NCBI GenBank assembly: GCA_902196205.1
Contig: CABIKM010000012.1
Coordinates: 1 to 64,000 of the forward strand
Direction of reading: 5' to 3'
DNA: 64,000 nucleotides
DNA from: Candidatus Methylomirabilis lanthanidiphila
Lineage (GTDB): Bacteria > Methylomirabilota > Methylomirabilia > Methylomirabilales > Methylomirabilaceae
Made by a program: the position numbers and the translations under genes. The notes below the pieces were generated by a model. The model worked only from the letters and a program-made list of their open reading frames with translations. It did not search any database and was not told the origin of the DNA. How positions within the stretch are numbered: position 1 is the first letter of the stretch; each line of letters opens with the position of its first letter. Below, one piece after another: positions 47,080-55,612 of this stretch.

Positions 47080-47352
47080 TCACGCCACCTCAAGCAAGGC
47101 CTTGGGATTCTTATCGGCGATCATGAGTAGCGTTCGAGCTGCGCCGGATGGCGCACGGCGTCCCTGTTCCCATTCCTGAAGCGTTCGGACCGAAACCCCC
47201 AACAATTGCGCGAATCGAGACTGCGAAAGGCCCGTTTTTTCCCGGATGGAGCCGACCGATGGTACGGTGATCACGCGACCATACTCACCACGTTTGATTT
47301 CGCGGATGCCTCCCAGAATCTCCAAGCCAATATTACGTTCGGATTTAGCCAT
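47080..47352 (-). CDS. HigA-type antitoxin, XRE helix-turn-helix
   Basis: 90 aa. The HTH lies at ~41-70 (EKTGLSQSRFAQLLGVSVRTLQEWEQGRRAP), the XRE pattern of HigA-2/NadS antitoxins. Its start overlaps the toxin gene end by eight bases. In this group the toxin gene comes first and the antitoxin represses the operon through its own DNA-binding domain. Confidence 0.88.
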   Translation of the reverse strand: MAKSERNIGLEILGGIREIKRGEYGRVITVPSVGSIREKTGLSQSRFAQLLGVSVRTLQEWEQGRRAPSGAARTLLMIADKNPKALLEVA

Positions 47353-47659
47353 CGTCGATCTCCTTCTTGATCTGTTTCAAAATATGTGACGGGATGTTCT
47401 CAGAGACATTCTTGGCATAAAGGGTCAACATCCAAATGACGCCCTCGCTGACTTTGGCGTAGTAAACGATCCGAATTCCACCTCGCTTTCCGCGCCCAGC
47501 CAAACCCCAACGCAGTTTTCGTATCCCTCCAGAACCTGGAATAATAGCACCTGCTTCGGGGTTCCTAATCAGGGTCGTTTGTAAGTCCGCGTATTCGTCG
47601 TCAGAAAGATACTCGGAAACGAGGCGCGTGAATAACTTTGTTTCGATGAAACTATACAT
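47345..47659 (-). CDS. HigB/RelE-type toxin
   Basis: 104 aa RelE-superfamily protein: FTRLVSEYLSDDEYADLQTTLIRNP, IIPGSGGIRKLRWGLAGRGKRGGIRIVYY, then WMLTLYAKNVSENIPSHIL. This is the HigB-2 (DUF1044-type) pattern. Members cleave mRNA on the ribosome. First gene of the operon with the antitoxin. The promoter is immediately upstream, its -10 only six bases from ATG 47659. Confidence 0.88.
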   Translation of the reverse strand: MYSFIETKLFTRLVSEYLSDDEYADLQTTLIRNPEAGAIIPGSGGIRKLRWGLAGRGKRGGIRIVYYAKVSEGVIWMLTLYAKNVSENIPSHILKQIKKEIDDG

Positions 47660-49116: not shown

Positions 49117-49907
49117 ACGGTCCGGCGTTCACCGAGTCGGAGTTCATGATCTGCCAGTGCGCCCGGCTGATCCGGGACGGCACCCTAGTCTTTATCGGCT
49201 ATGGGATGCCGCAGATCGCCGCGATCCTTGCCCAGCGCCTGCACGCCCCCCGGATGGTCCAGGTCTACGAATTCGGCGCAGTCGGGGCGCTCCCTGAGAC
49301 GCCGTTCGTCCGTTTTACGATGGGCGGGCCCCGCAACTGCTATCGGTCGCTGGCCTGGACGAACATGAACACCATCTTCGCGCAGGCCCAGCTCGGGATG
49401 ATCGATATGGGCGTCCTCGGCGCCACCCAGATCGACCGGTTCGGCAACCTCAACTCGACGATGACCGGGCGCGACTACCACCGCCCCGAGAAGCGATTTC
49501 CCGGAAGCGGAGGGGCCAACGAGGTGCTGTCCCAGTGCTGGCAGACGGTGATCATTGTCAAGCACGAGCGCCGCCGTTTCGTGGAGAAGGTGGATTTCGT
49601 GACCTCACCCGGATTTCTTGACGGCACGCCCGGAGCGCGCGAGCGGGCCGGCCTGCCGAAAGATACCGGACCCTGGCGGGTGGCCACCTCCAAGGCCCTC
49701 TACGGATTTGACGACCAGACCAGGCAGATGATCCTGCTGAGTGTCCTGCGCGGCCTGAGCGTGGATGACGCCCTGAAAGAGATGGAGTTTACTCCCCTCA
49801 TCGCGTCACAACTTGAGGAGCTCGCACCCCCGACGGATGAGGAGCTTCGCATCCTTCGGGAGGAGATCGACCCCGATCGCGCGATCATCGGTACCGCCGG
49901 GGAGTGA
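49113..49907 (+). CDS. CoA-transferase family I, subunit B
   Basis: 264 aa, GTG start overlapping the subunit A stop, with AAGGAGGG upstream. VQVYEFGAVGALPETP near residue 50 holds the glutamate that forms the glutamyl-CoA thioester in this family. GVLGATQIDRFGNLNST and GSGGANEV follow. The last 44 bases recur in diverged form at 54907-54950, on the far side of the lanthipeptide-like cluster. Confidence 0.88.
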   Translation: MNGPAFTESEFMICQCARLIRDGTLVFIGYGMPQIAAILAQRLHAPRMVQVYEFGAVGALPETPFVRFTMGGPRNCYRSLAWTNMNTIFAQAQLGMIDMGVLGATQIDRFGNLNSTMTGRDYHRPEKRFPGSGGANEVLSQCWQTVIIVKHERRRFVEKVDFVTSPGFLDGTPGARERAGLPKDTGPWRVATSKALYGFDDQTRQMILLSVLRGLSVDDALKEMEFTPLIASQLEELAPPTDEELRILREEIDPDRAIIGTAGE

Positions 49908-49994
49908 TAGACCTCCGCCTAACGGTGAAAGCGCTTTTCAGGGAAAAAGGAAGACGATGTCTGTTCGGTTTCCCAGTGATCACGTTTTTTCCCC

Positions 49995-50023
49995 TTGACA
50001 GGATGGGGGTAGCTTTCTATGCT
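49995..50023 (+). promoter_or_regulatory. Sigma70-type promoter of the RiPP cluster
   Basis: TTGACA at 49995-50000 and TATGCT at 50018-50023 with a 17-base spacer. Transcription would begin near 50030 and read through the 34-codon ORF, the precursor remnant and the intact precursor toward the enzymes. No terminator is apparent before 50482. Confidence 0.8.
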
Positions 50024-50086
50024 TCCCATATTGTGACGTAAATCTAATACTGCGTGTGGAGTAAGGGTGCTGCAGTGGAGGCTCAG

Positions 50087-50191
50087 ATGACCACGACAGC
50101 CACGGTGGTGTCCCCAATGCCATCGAACGCGCCTATCGTGCCTGCGAACAAGGTAGCGCACGAGGCGCTTTTTTTATTCCGCGTCGCCTGA
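50087..50191 (+). CDS. Short ORF (34 aa) at the head of the RiPP cluster
   Basis: MTTTATVVSPMPSNAPIVPA... ending LFLFRVA, with GGAGG at 50077-50081 giving good spacing. It is the first ORF after the promoter. Its stop overlaps the start of the degenerate precursor (TGATG). No family is recognised. It may be a leader peptide, a small precursor, or the N-terminal remnant of an older precursor gene. No cysteine is present. Confidence 0.4.
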   Translation: MTTTATVVSPMPSNAPIVPANKVAHEALFLFRVA

Positions 50192-50420
50192 TGAGGCAGG
50201 TGCAGCAGGGGTGTTCGGGAAGATGCTGCGCAAAGATCCGCATATCGTCAGGGTTCCAACAGCGACTGGCCAACATCGAGAAGCGGGAAAAGGTAGTGAA
50301 GGAAAGCCTCACGCCTGTATCACTTGAGGAAACGGAGATCTGGAGAAAAAGCTCTCTGAGGCGCTCAACGAGCTGCGGAAGTGCAAGGCAAAGCTTGCCA
50401 AGAAATCAAAAGGAATAGCA
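50191..50420 (+). pseudogene. Frameshifted remnant of a second RiPP precursor
   Basis: Starts MRQVQQGCSGRCCAKI, then RLANIEKREKVVKESLTPVSLEETE, clearly related to the tail of the intact precursor (AVEEQEKLAHESLRPASLAEAE, residues 150-171). Near 50338 one base is missing. Shifting frame restores LEKKLSEALNELRKCKAKL, matching LEKKLIEALDEIKTIKAGL in the intact gene. The cysteine-rich part is reduced to three Cys. Most likely a decayed paralogue. Confidence 0.75.
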
Positions 50421-50481
50421 CCAAACACCGTCGCAGCCTCCACTTGGGCTGGGCTGCACACATCCGGGAAAGGAGCTCGAT

Positions 50482-51078
50482 ATGTTCAAGATCAAAGACT
50501 TGATGATCAAGATCATTCCCGAGGAAGGCAAGATGGCTGCGGAGCAGCCAGTGGGCTGCGGAGATTTTATGACGTGCGGTGGCTGCACCAACTGCACGGG
50601 GGATTGCACGGCTTGCACCAATACCCGCCAGTGCCTCGGCGGGTGCTCAGACCTCTACACATGCAAGGGGGGTTCGCGAGCGATGGCCGGATGCGGACTC
50701 ACGTGCGCGCCAAACACATGCCGGGTGTGCACGGTCGTTTGTACGGATGAGTGCAGTGCATGCTCACAACAGGTTCTCACCTGCAAGTGCACCGATAGTC
50801 CCACCTGCCGAGTCGGCACTTGCGGCTACGGCAGTTGCCAGAGGACTTACGGCGTTGCGGAGGCTCAGCAGCAGCTTACCTTGGAAAACCTTGCTGTGCT
50901 CAAGGCTCAGTTACGCCAGCAACTGGCGGCGGTTGAAGAGCAGGAAAAGCTGGCGCACGAAAGCCTCAGGCCGGCGTCTCTCGCAGAGGCGGAAGCACTG
51001 GAAAAGAAACTCATTGAAGCACTCGACGAAATCAAAACCATCAAGGCCGGCCTGAAGAAGAAGGAGAAGAAAGCATGA
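50482..51078 (+). CDS. Cysteine-rich RiPP (lanthipeptide-like) precursor with C-terminal helical tail
   Basis: 198 aa, ATG 50482 with AAAGGAG six bases upstream. A short N-terminal part (1-25) is followed by a core-like region (26-122) with 21 Cys and about 22 Ser/Thr. These are spaced two to nine residues apart (CGGCTNCTGDCTACT at 32-46, for example). Residues ~125-198 are a charged amphipathic helix ending in a Lys-rich stretch. The balanced Cys and Ser/Thr and the synthetase-like genes downstream suggest lanthionine or thioether formation. The core-before-tail order is unusual, because leaders are normally N-terminal. A metal-binding Cys-rich protein is the main alternative. Confidence 0.65.
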   Translation: MFKIKDLMIKIIPEEGKMAAEQPVGCGDFMTCGGCTNCTGDCTACTNTRQCLGGCSDLYTCKGGSRAMAGCGLTCAPNTCRVCTVVCTDECSACSQQVLTCKCTDSPTCRVGTCGYGSCQRTYGVAEAQQQLTLENLAVLKAQLRQQLAAVEEQEKLAHESLRPASLAEAEALEKKLIEALDEIKTIKAGLKKKEKKA

Positions 51079-51182
51079 CGAACGACTCTCCCAGCAGCAT
51101 CCGGAGCATCCTTGATTTGTGCGGAACTGCCGGGTGATAATCGCAGGCTGCAAGGCGCGACTGGACGTACTTGGCCGGGCTG

Positions 51183-52373
51183 ATGGCGAAGGAGAACCTG
51201 AAAACCATTCTTGAGTGTGAGTTTCGCTCGAATCCGGCATACGAAATCGTTGAGATCGAGCGGATGAACGCGGCGGAGAAATCCGCACTGCACCAACTGC
51301 GCGACGATCACGATGCCTTCGGCATTCTTCGTCCGCGTGAGAACTCCTCTCTCAGCATCAAGGCGATCTGCAAGGACACTGCTCTGCTCTTTTTCAGCCT
51401 TCAATCGGCAGGGCGGTTGCCTGCCTATCTGCTGCGTTCGCTCGACGAGCGAGGAAACCAGCACATCGCTGAACTGGTGCTCGACGGCATCTTGCAAATC
51501 TCGCGCGACGACCGGTTCGTTTCCGGCTTGGACGCACGCGATCTGATCTACAATCAGGTCGCGGTACCGGAAAATCTCAGCCGTATCGCCCGCCTTTCCA
51601 CCGAAGCGCTGAAATTCGCCCAACGCCTTCCGATCGATGACCCGATGCGCTTGTCCGCGCAGTTGTATTTTTTCAACCGAGTGCCGGTAACGCCGCGTTT
51701 GCAGAGGCGGCTGGGCGGGGAGGCGGCTTATCTTGAGTTTCTCGGAATTCACGACCAGGGTGCGTGCGGGAAGCTCCTAAAAAAACACTGGAAAAAATCG
51801 GTCGATTCACCCGAAATGCTGGGCTGGCAGTCGTGGGGTCTGAGAAAGTCCAGAGGAATGCGGCAGCGCCAAACCTACGATTATAAAATCTACGTAAGCC
51901 CGGCGCTGGATGCGGTACCCGAGATGCTGCCGCAGGTGGTGGCGGTATTCACCCAGATGGAGATCAAAAGGTTCAAGTTTGGTGCAGATCTCGCCGGCTT
52001 GGCGCGGCCCGACAAGATCGTGGCGTATCTTGAAAGCTATGAACAGGTGGAGGCCGTGGGTCGCGCCTTGGGTGAGCAGCTTGGCGATGTGCCCGTTCAC
52101 GGGGTGCCATTCACCGCAGACCTTTGCGGGGACGGTTTAATTTCCTGGGGCATGGATCCGCACGAGAGACGTGTTTTCGACTGGCAAGAAACCGCAAGCT
52201 GGCGTCTCTGGATTACCAATCATCTTGCTAGGGGGCTGCTCACCGCCCGGAGCTCGGCGCAATCTGACATTGAACCGTGGCAGTTCGCCCTCGAGCGCCT
52301 TCGCTTCGAGGGAATTGACACTGATACGTGGACGCCGATGGCGGCCTACGAGCACAAGATCAGCCAAGGTTAG
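51183..52373 (+). CDS. HopA1-like protein, candidate phospho-Ser/Thr lyase
   Basis: 396 aa from ATG 51183; a TTG four codons earlier is possible. The C-terminal half has the HopA1-type pattern: YDYKIYVSP (232-240), KFGADLAGLARPDKIVAYL (265-283), GVPFTADLCGDGLISWGMDP (307-326) and WRLWITNHLARGL (340-352). HopA1-like proteins act as lyases with separate kinases in class V lanthipeptide and thioamitide pathways. The N-terminal ~200 residues are helical and unassigned. Next to a kinase-cyclase lacking a lyase domain, it probably supplies that step (inference). Confidence 0.55.
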   Translation: MAKENLKTILECEFRSNPAYEIVEIERMNAAEKSALHQLRDDHDAFGILRPRENSSLSIKAICKDTALLFFSLQSAGRLPAYLLRSLDERGNQHIAELVLDGILQISRDDRFVSGLDARDLIYNQVAVPENLSRIARLSTEALKFAQRLPIDDPMRLSAQLYFFNRVPVTPRLQRRLGGEAAYLEFLGIHDQGACGKLLKKHWKKSVDSPEMLGWQSWGLRKSRGMRQRQTYDYKIYVSPALDAVPEMLPQVVAVFTQMEIKRFKFGADLAGLARPDKIVAYLESYEQVEAVGRALGEQLGDVPVHGVPFTADLCGDGLISWGMDPHERRVFDWQETASWRLWITNHLARGLLTARSSAQSDIEPWQFALERLRFEGIDTDTWTPMAAYEHKISQG

Positions 52374-52387
52374 AAAAGTCTCAGGCT

Positions 52388-54829
52388 ATGAAGATAACCG
52401 GCGTATTTCTTCTTCCCAAGGACGTCCAACTGGTCCAGGTCAATACGTTGCCAGAGGACAAGCGACGCCAGTTTGAGGCGGAAGACGGCGATTTTGTCAT
52501 GACGCGGCTTCGAGCCAGGAGCCCGTCAAAGGTAATCGATGCGGACATGGCGAAGCTCGTGCAACGCTTCAAGGAAGGGAAAACGATCGTGGCCGCGGTA
52601 CTGGAGTTTTGCAAAGACTGCGGTCATGACCCGGAGACGACACTGCAAGCAGCCTATCCGATTCTGGAGGAACTCATCCAGGCGAACTTTCTCGCCGCAG
52701 ACGGGTCGGAAGAGGCAGCGCCCGTGGAGGCGGGTTTGAAGCAAGGAGACGACTGGTCGGGGCTAAAAGTGATTCGGACCGTCCAGGTGCTCGAAGATTC
52801 CGAAATCTACCAAGCCAGCACGAAGGATGGCGAACTGGTTGTGCTGAAACTAGCGAGATCGGGAACGGCGGTGCAGCGCCTCACCCGGATGATTTCGCGC
52901 GAAGCGAAAATCTTGGAACACCTGAGCGGAGTTGTTTCGCCACGCGTTCGTGCCCACGGGGAATTCGAGGGTCGGCCCTATCTCGCAGCGCAGTGGTGCG
53001 AAGGTGTCCATGGCGCGCGTGCGGCGGGCCGCCTGCGCTCCATGCACGGTAGGGAAGGCCGCCGAAGGCTCCTTGATCTTTGCTGTGCCATCGCCGATGC
53101 CTACGCGTTCCTTCATGAGCAGAACGTGATTCACGGCGACGTACATCCGGGTAATCTCATTATCGGCGATGACGGCAAGGTCACTATCATCGACTTCGGC
53201 TTCGCGCGGCTGACCGCCGATGAGGGGTCGAGTCTGTCTCGCTCGCAGCGCGGCGGCTTGGGCTTCTTTTTTGAGCCAGAGTTTGCCACAGCGAGTCTGG
53301 GCAAGATGCAGAAATCCCCGCAGTCCAGCTATTTGGGAGAGCAGCACATTGTTGCGCACATGCTCTACCAGCTAATGACCGGCCACGGCTATGCCGAGTT
53401 CTCCGTCCAACGGGAAGAAAGCATGCGCCAACTGGCGGAATCCAATCCCGAACCGTTCGCACGGTGGGGTCTGGACCCGTGGCCGGACGTAGAAGCGATC
53501 CTCCGCCGGGCGCTGGCCCGGAATCCAGCGGACCGCTACGAGTCTGTGAAGGATTTGGCGAAGGCGTTGCGTTCCGCCGCGATTCCAGAGCCAGTACGTC
53601 GCGAGCCGCCGGCGCCGCCAGCGGCCACTTCACCGCTTTCCGACAGGCTCCTGTTAGATTATCTCCGCCGGTTTGATCCGGCGGGAGCGTTGTTCGCGTC
53701 CGGCTTGCCGGAGCCGCCGTATTCCTCCGTCAACTACGGCAGCGCAGGAGTGGCTTATTTTCTCTATCGGATTGCGTGCATCCGAAATGATGCATTGCTG
53801 CTTTCGTGGTCAAAGCTTTGGATTGAGAAGGCCATCAGCGAGGCTGCGTCCAAGGGCGAGCCCGCGTTCACCAACCCGGGAGGCGAAATCACGCGCGACA
53901 TCATTGGGCCAGTTGCGCTTTATCACACAGAGACTGGGCTCTACGCCGTGAAAGCTCTGATAGGACACGCCATGGGCGACATTCCATCGGAATTGGACGG
54001 CTTGGGCGGTTTCGTCAGGGAGGCACAAAAACCCTGCGACAACATTGACCTCACTCTGGGAAGCTCAGGGGTCTTACTGGGTTGCGCTTTGATGGCCGAG
54101 GCGATGCCAAATCACGCTCCGATACGCAGACTTGGCGATGTGCTGCTCAAAGAGATTTGGACTCGAATCGAATCCATGCCGGCCATCGAGGAGGAAAAAC
54201 AGTTTCGATTCACCGGTATCGCCCACGGATGGTCGGGCGTCCTTTACGCAGTCCTGATGTGGTGTCGAGCAACACAAGTCAAGCTGCCCGCGACATTGCC
54301 GGATCGGCTGGATCAGTTGGCAAATTTGGCGGAGCCGGCCGGCGCGGGAGTTCATTGGGAAAGGAAAGTGCGGTCTGCGCGCCATCGTGATCCATCTGAC
54401 GTTTCACCAAGTTGGTGTAATGGAACGGGCGGCATGATCCACTTGTGGACGCTTGCCCACCAAATGCTTCGCGACCAGCGGTTCTTGGAACTGGCGGAAG
54501 GCTCGGCATGGAATGTGATCGAGGCCTCAGACAGTGTTGATCAGATTTGCTGCGGTCGTCCGGGGCAGACCTACGGAGTGATCAATCTTTTCAAGCATAC
54601 CGGTGAAAGCCGATGGCTCGGCCATGCCAAAGCGATGGCGGAAAAGTGCTTGCGCTTGACGACTCCACCGCATGGAACTCAAGTCCCGTCGTTTTACTAT
54701 GGCCTCTACAAAGGGCCGGTAGGTTCAGCGCTGCTCTCCGCGGACATTGAAACTCCGTCGGAGGCTTACATGCCGATGTTCGAATCGGAAGGCTGGGCGA
54801 ACGGCTTTGGGATGAAGATGCCCGCATGA
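52388..54829 (+). CDS. PqqD-like/kinase/LanC-like fusion, lanthipeptide-synthetase-type
   Basis: 813 aa from ATG 52388. Residues ~25-105 resemble a PqqD-type RiPP recognition element (SPSKVIDADMAKLVQRFKEG ... DPETTLQAAYPILEELIQANFL). Residues ~125-400 are a protein-kinase domain: K154, E172, HGDVHPGN (249-256) and DFG (269-271). Residues ~415-813 are a LanC-like cyclase: H613 in AHGWSG, C677 in SWCNGTGG, and C721-C722-G723 where most LanC proteins have CHG. No OspF-like lyase domain is present, unlike class III/IV synthetases; the HopA1-like neighbour may fill that role. Confidence 0.75.
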   Translation: MKITGVFLLPKDVQLVQVNTLPEDKRRQFEAEDGDFVMTRLRARSPSKVIDADMAKLVQRFKEGKTIVAAVLEFCKDCGHDPETTLQAAYPILEELIQANFLAADGSEEAAPVEAGLKQGDDWSGLKVIRTVQVLEDSEIYQASTKDGELVVLKLARSGTAVQRLTRMISREAKILEHLSGVVSPRVRAHGEFEGRPYLAAQWCEGVHGARAAGRLRSMHGREGRRRLLDLCCAIADAYAFLHEQNVIHGDVHPGNLIIGDDGKVTIIDFGFARLTADEGSSLSRSQRGGLGFFFEPEFATASLGKMQKSPQSSYLGEQHIVAHMLYQLMTGHGYAEFSVQREESMRQLAESNPEPFARWGLDPWPDVEAILRRALARNPADRYESVKDLAKALRSAAIPEPVRREPPAPPAATSPLSDRLLLDYLRRFDPAGALFASGLPEPPYSSVNYGSAGVAYFLYRIACIRNDALLLSWSKLWIEKAISEAASKGEPAFTNPGGEITRDIIGPVALYHTETGLYAVKALIGHAMGDIPSELDGLGGFVREAQKPCDNIDLTLGSSGVLLGCALMAEAMPNHAPIRRLGDVLLKEIWTRIESMPAIEEEKQFRFTGIAHGWSGVLYAVLMWCRATQVKLPATLPDRLDQLANLAEPAGAGVHWERKVRSARHRDPSDVSPSWCNGTGGMIHLWTLAHQMLRDQRFLELAEGSAWNVIEASDSVDQICCGRPGQTYGVINLFKHTGESRWLGHAKAMAEKCLRLTTPPHGTQVPSFYYGLYKGPVGSALLSADIETPSEAYMPMFESEGWANGFGMKMPA

Positions 54830-54906: not shown

Positions 54907-54950
54907 AGATCGACCCCGATCGCACGATCATCGGCGCTGCCGGGGATTAA
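54907..54950 (+). pseudogene. Duplicate fragment of the CoA-transferase B 3' end
   Basis: Forty-four bases, reading IDPDRTIIGAAGD then stop, match the end of the subunit B gene at 49864-49907 (IDPDRAIIGTAGE) with six mismatches. No longer part of that gene is present. The stop overlaps the end of convergent msrQ. It marks the right edge of the RiPP island. Confidence 0.8.
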
Positions 54951-55612
54951 TTCCCACGCATCTCATCGGCGGTCCCGGTCAGCCAATGGCCTCCACGAAG
55001 CCATGCCGGAAGACCTAACCAGCCTTGGCTTCGCATCCAATCCCACAGGCGGACACCCAGCAGGACGGCCAGTATGGCGGCGTAGAGATACGGGTCGTTC
55101 ACTCCCTTCTTGACCAGCCACAGGTAGTGCAGCACGCCTAGCAGCCCGATGAGGTAAACCAGCCTGTGCAGTCGGCGCCAGCTCCTGCCCCCTAGACGTT
55201 TCACCATGCCTGATGTGGAGGTGGCCGCCAGCGGCATCAGCAACGTCAGGGCGAGCATGCCGACGGTGATGTAGGGCCGCTTGACGATGTCGGGTATCAG
55301 TTCCCCCCATTCGAAAAAGTGGTCGACCGCGATCCAGACGGTGAAGTGGAGGCAGACATAGAAGAACGCGAACAATCCCAGCAGGCGCCGGAGGCTCATC
55401 TGCCACCCGATCCCGAACACGATGCGAAGAGGCGTCGGCGCGAGGCTGGCAAGTAGGAGTCGGAGCGTGGTATCGCCAAGCAGGTTCGTGGTGTACGAGA
55501 TCGGATTGGCGCCGAGCCCGTTGGTAAAAACGCGATACAGGAGGAGCAGCAGGGGCGACAATGCAATCCCCCACACGGCGCTCTTCAGGATGATGCGGGC
55601 TCGCTTGGACAT
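54947..55612 (-). CDS. msrQ: Methionine sulfoxide reductase haem subunit MsrQ
   Basis: 221 aa inner-membrane cytochrome b with about six hydrophobic segments. Haem-ligand histidines lie in YVCLHFTVWIAVDHFF and GRSWRRLHRLVYLIGLLGVLHYLW, as in MsrQ/YedZ. It passes electrons to MsrP in the periplasm. It follows msrP by three bases on the minus strand. The C-terminal ~20 residues are a soluble tail. Confidence 0.93.
   Translation of the reverse strand: MSKRARIILKSAVWGIALSPLLLLLYRVFTNGLGANPISYTTNLLGDTTLRLLLASLAPTPLRIVFGIGWQMSLRRLLGLFAFFYVCLHFTVWIAVDHFFEWGELIPDIVKRPYITVGMLALTLLMPLAATSTSGMVKRLGGRSWRRLHRLVYLIGLLGVLHYLWLVKKGVNDPYLYAAILAVLLGVRLWDWMRSQGWLGLPAWLRGGHWLTGTADEMRGN

Follow-up and report, generated by a model that had tools for sequence, protein, structure and literature searches.

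Lanthipeptide classes are defined by the way in which dehydration and cyclization are divided among the enzymes, and the usual precursor carries an N-terminal leader only. In class V, the kinase and the lyase are separate proteins, and the pair CaoK-CaoY was shown to be a heterodimer (PMC9486802). In class IV, the zinc triad of the LanC domain is Cys-Cys-His (CCH) according to a 2024 survey (PMC11251773), and a 2023 structural study describes class II to V enzymes as being without any identifiable recognition element (RRE) of ribosomally synthesized and post-translationally modified peptides (RiPPs) (PMC10604976). The same survey lists a predicted combination of a lyase with a Cys-Cys-Cys (CCC) cyclase ("L-CCC") for 8 peptides (PMC11251773), and clusters with a stand-alone kinase and a phosphothreonine lyase were already remarked upon in 2014 (PMC4159009), so that, as far as these precedents go, not all elements of the system described here are new. 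This system is a cluster of three co-directional genes, coding for a precursor peptide, a 396-aa protein and an 813-aa protein. It lies in a window of 64,000 nucleotides, the whole stretch of DNA that was analyzed, on contig CABIKM010000012.1 of Candidatus Methylomirabilis lanthanidiphila (assembly size 3.05 Mb).

The cluster quite likely encodes a lanthipeptide-type RiPP pathway of minimal size, whose synthetase is split and guided by RREs, and the product is probably a heavily cross-linked peptide. A first-pass annotation of the letters alone had proposed a precursor, a HopA1-like protein and a fused PqqD-like/kinase/LanC-like enzyme, which was borne out by the genes, the Pfam matches and the folds. 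Absent from that annotation were the homology of the lyase N-terminus to the RRE, the Cys-Cys-Cys zinc site of the cyclase, and the position of the Cys/Thr-rich core between a strand motif and a helical follower, both conserved. The genes of the 396-aa lyase-like and the 813-aa kinase-LanC protein are separated by 14 nt (Table 1). As all 27 other loci show the same arrangement, chance is excluded.

For the 396-aa protein alone, no match was obtained in Pfam, NCBIfam or PDB sequence searches, and the consensus sequence of its family likewise failed to reach PF17914. Among 26 homologues, Pfam reported HopA1 in one (E 8e-4) and RamC_N in one (0.028), and the identity of the protein came solely from the fold search. 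The model built from the 26-member alignment (pLDDT 87, pTM 0.84) matched best with HopA1 (4rsw, 4rsx; E ~1e-5) and the LanY of the lexapeptide dehydratase LxmKY (9dk1-3), followed by ThurKC, SalKC, OspF, VirA, SpvC, and CuvL. All 24 best PDB fold matches are HopA1/OspF-family proteins, lyase-containing lanthipeptide synthetases or LanY. The residues K235, K265, R275, K278, Y282, and R341 are invariant in the alignment of the 26 homologues and include, as K235, K265, R275, and Y282, the catalytic Lys pair, Arg and Tyr of the HopA1/OspF type. The spacing of K265-R275-Y282 (10, 17) is that of K219-R229-Y236 in the class V lyase CaoY, in which elimination is lost in K219A and impaired in R229Q, and in which Y236 was equated by alignment with the proton-abstracting Tyr158 of SpvC (PMC9486802). 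K235-x-Y237 occupies the place of OspF K104-x-H106, with Tyr instead of His106, and the OspF-type histidine is likewise missing from LanY (PMC9486802). Judged by its modeled fold, the 396-aa protein is a phospho-Ser/Thr lyase of the HopA1/LanY fold, in agreement with the earlier label "HopA1-like".

In Pfam, the 813-aa fusion enzyme scored 48 bits with Pkinase (cut-off 31.7) and 93 bits with LANC_like (cut-off 23.2). Among the kinase families, Pkinase (PF00069) fits best, APH giving a weaker and partial match. In NCBIfam, the best match is the class IV LanL family NF038150, with 128.8 bits against a cut-off of 650 bits, and it spans the kinase and LanC parts only (residues 132-759). The kinase residues Lys154, Glu172, HxD 249-251, Asn256, and Asp269 are intact in all 26 full-length members, and the DFG motif varies slightly. 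In the LanC domain, His613 (AHG) and the triad Cys677-Cys721-Cys722 are retained in 22 of these 26, and each of the 22 intact sites is of the CCC type. In a profile search against the PDB, the LanC domain was closest to the LANCL proteins LANCL1/2 (1e-39), ahead of CuvL (1e-14), LicM2 (1e-11), and NisC (4e-9). The human LANCLs have been placed within the class IV clade (PMC7268733).

In the other four members, from two Nitrosomonas, Sphingomonas parva, and Neoroseomonas alba, the LanC domain is degenerate and all zinc ligands are gone. Exactly these four have precursors with a single Cys, located inside a conserved PNPDCGGTSxETIP motif, and L018, with a closely similar motif and 2 Cys, has an intact zinc site. 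At the sequence level, this coincidence points in the direction expected if the LanC domain closes rings on cysteines. The four loci (L023, L024, L026, L028) encode a short RRE-less lyase, a kinase with the degenerate LanC domain and a precursor of about 192 aa. This lineage is possibly a dehydration-only RiPP.

Residues 1-112 of the kinase-cyclase are predicted to fold into strands followed by three helices (AlphaFold model, pLDDT 87). The top Foldseek matches of this N-terminus, with probability 1.00 and a best E of 1.8e-3, are TigE, TbiB1, ThcOx, PqqD, TglHI, and MibB, all of them RRE domains or RiPP enzymes that contain one. The PqqD/RRE-like character assigned to the N-terminus in the first-pass annotation is thus recovered in the fold. 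At the sequence level, weak PqqD matches were found in 3 of 27 members (best 0.013). Furthermore, residues 9-122 of the lyase aligned with this RRE in hhalign with a probability of 89% (P 2e-6, 82 columns), against 0.4% for the lyase body used as control. The short lyases of L023, L024, and L026-L029 are without this N-terminal domain. In Cupriavidus, the same RRE domain is also fused to a 2-oxoglutarate (2OG)-Fe(II) oxygenase, whose gene lies between the lyase and kinase-cyclase genes, and this fusion fits the expectation for a recognition module. On the evidence of the models and profiles, the domain is a divergent RRE family common to the lyase, the kinase-cyclase and the 2OG oxygenase.

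The precursor consists of an N-terminal strand motif, a core and a helical follower. An F-K-V-K-D-L-M-I-x-I-type motif (FKVKDLMI) begins an open reading frame just upstream of the lyase gene in 24 of the 27 other loci, and L009 and L010 show a variant of it. By blastp, the window precursor is related to those of L007 (5e-16) and L016 (7e-10), and it gave no match in Pfam; against NCBIfam the precursors gave no real match. Leader motif and follower are conserved; the core between them varies, contains repeats in many cases and has a high content of Cys, Ser and Thr. Ser/Thr account for 22% of the window core versus 5% outside it. The L007 core contains 20 Cys and 20 Ser/Thr in 91 aa, and another core pairs them 6:6. 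In the Paenibacillus precursor, the unit of motif, core and helix is repeated three times in one protein. Strongly repetitive precursors are encoded in L029 (9139-9834), L022 (9324-9953), and L003 (12041-12793), with CGTTSGTGCGTSNEPG, CKRTNDDDIT and triple motif-core-helix units, and their sequences suggest cores that grow by duplication.

By tblastn, full-length relatives of the lyase were detected in Paenibacillus peoriae and Cupriavidus oxalaticus, in both cases on plasmids; scanning a set in which each species is represented by one genome contributed 25 more loci. A survey of the neighborhood for co-occurring enzyme pairs, as proposed in the first-pass annotation, found an RRE-kinase(-LanC) gene together with the lyase gene in each of the 27 other loci, and the pairing is obligate among these loci, which were retrieved via the lyase; orphan kinase-cyclases fall outside such a search. 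Some locus pairs are near-identical, leaving about 22 independent cases. In 25 of the 27, the kinase-(LanC) gene directly follows the lyase gene in the same direction, and in the remaining two, from Cupriavidus, the RRE-oxygenase gene intervenes; the contigs of L010 and L019 end within the kinase-(LanC) gene. The sequence distances of lyases and kinase-cyclases correlate with r 0.89 (24 loci). The annotated hosts represent about nine phyla and comprise Acidobacteriota, Alpha- and Betaproteobacteria, Gemmatimonadota, Bacteroidota, Elusimicrobia, Eremiobacterota, Bacillota, one archaeal metagenome-assembled genome (MAG), and the Methylomirabilota of the window. The archaeal origin of L014 was not accepted, as this MAG contig is possibly mis-binned. 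Among 95 genomes of the window's phylum, the lyase was found in this genome only, and no relative was found in the viral contigs searched. The enzyme set, found together in every case, is present in at least nine phyla and seems to have been unrecognized so far. In the Cupriavidus clusters (L004, 3395-12580; L015), a full-length LanB and a cupin/JmjC-like protein are added beside the RRE-2OG oxygenase, which gives a mixed class I and split-kinase pathway.

According to the mechanism proposed here, two related RREs, one on the kinase-cyclase and one on the lyase, would bind the precursor. They would most likely do so at its N-terminal FKVKDLMI strand, and the helical follower would provide a second anchor. 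Binding would deliver the precursor to the kinase, which would phosphorylate Ser/Thr of the core. The separate lyase, RRE-bearing in most members, would then eliminate the phosphate to give dehydroalanine or dehydrobutyrine, to which the CCC LanC domain would add core Cys, yielding numerous (methyl)lanthionine rings; the window core could hold about 21 at most. By analogy, the tight pairing suggests that lyase and kinase-cyclase form a complex like CaoK-CaoY. Maturation and export, if any, would be performed by host proteases and transporters encoded elsewhere. The gene content, the folds of the domains, the conservation of catalytic residues, the obligate pairing and the build of the precursor are results of the analysis, whereas the individual chemical steps, the precursor end that each RRE binds and the role of the product are inferred.

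Several points weigh against such a pathway. The product, its phosphorylation and its thioethers are all inferred, none being observed. No precursor was found at L021 and L027, and the cores of several relatives (Cupriavidus, L009/L010, L014) are poor in Cys. Profile searches tie the lyase to LanY/HopA1 weakly (one of 26 homologues, and not the window protein), and the four zinc-site losses with single-Cys precursors belong to one lineage and hence count as one evolutionary event. In addition, no dedicated protease or transporter is linked to the cluster in the cassette or among the surveyed neighbors of the homologous loci. In a reading that is hardly credible, the Cys-rich protein would be a metal-binding or structural protein beside a signaling kinase-lyase pair acting on other proteins; histidine kinases, response regulators and TPR proteins do occur near several homologues, and toxin-antitoxin genes occupy the cassette site of relatives. 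However, the leader motif and a Cys/Ser/Thr-rich open reading frame directly 5′ of the lyase gene in 24 of 27 loci from unrelated phyla, together with RRE domains on both enzymes, a RiPP hallmark, speak against it.

A ringless product is somewhat easier to envisage, though still improbable. Here the pathway would stop at dehydration, and the LanC domain would be structural or would add outside thiols such as glutathione in the manner of LANCL, giving a dehydro- or thiol-adduct peptide. The proximity of the domain to LANCL1/2 and the four relatives that keep kinase and lyase without a zinc site would fit this, whereas the matching numbers of Cys and Ser/Thr in the cores (21:21, 20:20, 6:6) and the coincidence of zinc-site loss with the loss of all Cys but one would not. 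The strongest competitor, itself unlikely, is an otherwise ordinary LanL system of class IV whose lyase domain merely turned into a separate gene, so that no new class would be warranted. It draws on the LanL match (129 bits over kinase and LanC) and on a LanC domain nearer to the LANCLs, members of the class IV clade (PMC7268733), than to CuvL or NisC. Against this stand a score far under the cut-off, an RRE in the place of the lyase domain, a second RRE on the lyase, a precursor with a follower, the CCC triad where CCH is given for type IV (PMC11251773), and the description of class II-V enzymes as devoid of an identifiable RRE (PMC10604976). The split, RRE-guided lanthipeptide-type pathway remains the preferred interpretation.

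Whether this amounts to a seventh lanthipeptide class is rated as evenly balanced. Such a class would combine an RRE-lyase with an RRE-kinase-LanC(CCC) and a core with unusually many rings, up to about 21, between a strand leader and a helical follower; it would span at least nine mostly non-actinobacterial phyla, travel here on a 5-kb mobile cassette, and include one dehydration-only lineage after loss of the zinc site. The suggestion of a new class or sub-class in the first-pass annotation is a fair bioinformatic proposal, as the combination does not pass when checked against classes III, IV, V, and VI and the unit is conserved in about nine phyla. A class number of its own would call for chemical evidence and a phylogeny.

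The family departs from the known classes in the very split that defines them. Its lyase stands apart from a LanL-like kinase-cyclase, its cyclase is of the reactive CCC type and its precursor core is flanked by conserved stretches on both sides, and the RREs on both enzymes break the statement that class II-V lack RREs (PMC10604976) twice. Standard mining files a kinase and LanC on one protein as class III/IV and drops precursors above 120 aa (PMC7268733), rules by which the family would be missed or misfiled. It may offer a rare but widespread source of peptides with heavy cross-linking, present in Acidobacteriota, Bacteroidota and Methylomirabilota among others, and its natural cyclase-less relatives provide a direct way to examine the role of the CCC cyclase.

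Table 1. Features of the cluster and its borders (positions in the window).
Feature	Position	Strand	Evidence
Left copy of 45-bp direct repeat (3′ end of CoA-transferase gene)	49864..49908		repeat search, hotspot comparison
Sigma-70-like promoter TTGACA-17-TATGCT	49995..50023	+	10/12 consensus matches
Terminator-like hairpin and T-run between promoter and precursor	50155..50176 (hairpin 50155-50169)	+	sequence
Frameshifted remnant of second precursor's follower (LANIEKREKVVKESLTPVSLEETE / LEKKLSEALNELRKCKAKLAKKSKGIA)	50262..50420	+	sequence, repeats D2 and D5
Precursor peptide, 198 aa	50482..51078	+	good ribosome-binding site AAGGAG 8 nt upstream; conserved family
Leader strand motif MFKIKDLMIKII, candidate RRE ligand	50482..50517	+	motif 5′ of lyase in 24/27 loci, alignment
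Core, 94 aa, 21 Cys and 21 Ser/Thr	50557..50838	+	composition
Conserved helical follower	50869..51075	+	blastp to L007, L016, L017, L012, L008, L011; alignment
Predicted HopA1/LanY-fold phospho-Ser/Thr lyase, stand-alone, 396 aa	51183..52373 (ATG 51183; alternative TTG 51171)	+	alignment, fold
N-terminal RRE-like domain of lyase	51207..51548	+	hhalign to kinase-cyclase RRE; secondary structure
Lyase catalytic domain; K235, Y237, K265, R275, K278, Y282, R341 (ATG numbering)	51564..52340	+	alignment, fold search
RRE-kinase-LanC fusion enzyme, 813 aa	52388..54829	+	Pfam, NCBIfam, alignment
Predicted RRE (PqqD-like winged helix) domain of kinase-cyclase	52388..52723	+	model pLDDT 87, PDB fold matches
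Ser/Thr protein kinase domain; K154, E172, HGD 249-251, N256, DFG 269-271	52739..53587	+	Pfam, alignment
LanC cyclase domain; AHGW, zinc triad C677, C721, C722 (WCNG / CCG)	53705..54802	+	Pfam, alignment, profile search
Right copy of 45-bp direct repeat	54907..54951		repeat search

The cluster lies between the two 45-bp direct repeats, which are 87% identical and spaced by 5,043 bp. In the relative G010 the site is empty: the end of the CoA-transferase gene abuts the right flank, and there is a single repeat. The same site is occupied in G004 by 3.7 kb that include ParE, PIN and MazE-type genes, and in G001 by 1.3 kb that include a DUF5615/DUF433 pair. From the repeats and the empty or differently loaded sites it follows that the moved unit comprises the three genes and the frameshifted second-precursor remnant only. 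The G+C content of the cassette (57.9%) is close to the 60% of the flanks, and no integrase was found within the window's cassette. Within the genus, the 3′ end of the CoA-transferase gene serves as a hotspot for insertions (L045, L047, L050), with duplicated gene end. About 2.2 kb to the left of the cassette, a RelE-like toxin gene and a helix-turn-helix antitoxin gene are located on the minus strand (47080-47659).

The promoter named in the first-pass annotation is present as a sequence string, but promoter-like strings are not above expectation (2 seen versus 1.6 expected from shuffling), and the terminator-like hairpin intervenes before the precursor. As this hairpin sits between the sole promoter-like site and the precursor, attenuation is possible, or there may be a separate short transcript (50054-50191). 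An Rfam search gave no match within the cluster. The earlier remark that no transporter or protease gene is adjacent holds for the cassette, and none recurs beside the homologues. The largest recurring group of neighbors consists of two-component and TPR signaling proteins and may merely reflect the hosts. Near the clusters of L005, L006, L012, L013, L016, L019, and L022, histidine kinases, response regulators, TPR or TPR-CHAT proteins are encoded, which may be regulatory or host-typical.

Compared with the described systems, the combination of a stand-alone lyase, an RRE-kinase-LanC protein, two RREs, a CCC triad and a leader-follower precursor was not found in the literature searched, many subscription papers lying outside it. 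The class III enzymes LanKC (ThurKC, SalKC) share the lyase fold and the kinase type, but unite three domains in one chain with a zinc-free cyclase and no RRE (PMC10604976), whereas zinc ligands are present here and the kinase-cyclase chain is without a lyase domain. Class V (LanK, LanY and optional LanC; CaoKY, LxmKY, SmoC) has the same separate HopA1/LanY-fold lyase, as seen in the LxmY and HopA1 fold matches, the kept catalytic residues and the K-R-Y spacing of CaoY. However, the kinase of the family is Pkinase-like (PF00069) and fused to LanC instead of a stand-alone LanK of the APH type (PF01636), and both enzymes carry RREs. The streptococcal class VI (He et al., 2023, as summarized in PMC10676316) is similar in having a kinase-cyclase protein and a non-canonical lyase arrangement. 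According to that summary, its lyase and cyclase are truncated domains of a single chain and its products are miniatures with 4-residue rings; here the cyclase is full-length, the lyase is separate with no remnant in the chain, and the phyla differ from that of the streptococcal host.

The Cys-Cys-Cys triad is shared with type IIa cyclases (LanM of the ProcM type), whose dehydratase is unrelated to the lyase found here, and with the "L-CCC" group, for which the accessible survey text describes no split or RRE (PMC11251773). The RRE/PqqD domains of PqqD, TbiB1, ThcOx, MibB, and TigE resemble those of the family in predicted fold and in their N-terminal position on modifying enzymes; the family differs in giving no strong Pfam PqqD match. 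Unlike lanthipeptide precursors in general, the precursor has conserved stretches on both sides of the core rather than a leader alone. Closest of all are the class IV enzymes LanL (VenL, SgbL), which likewise have a Pkinase-type kinase fused to a zinc LanC domain and an OspF/HopA1-fold lyase in the pathway, and which give the best family match. A single lyase-kinase-LanC polypeptide was not seen: the lyase is separate at the window locus as well as at all 27 others, an N-terminal RRE takes its place, the triad is CCC in 22 of 22 intact members and not the CCH given for class IV (PMC11251773), the curated score stays at 128.8 of 650 bits, and the precursor has leader and follower and is usually longer than 120 aa. 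Neither of the two sequence-based outcomes named as refuting in the first-pass annotation occurred: the 396-aa protein does have the HopA1/LanY fold, with the catalytic residues conserved, and the kinase-LanC protein is nearest to LanL yet lyase-less and RRE-bearing. The overall working of the system would be LanL-like, save for the detachment of the lyase and the gain of RREs.

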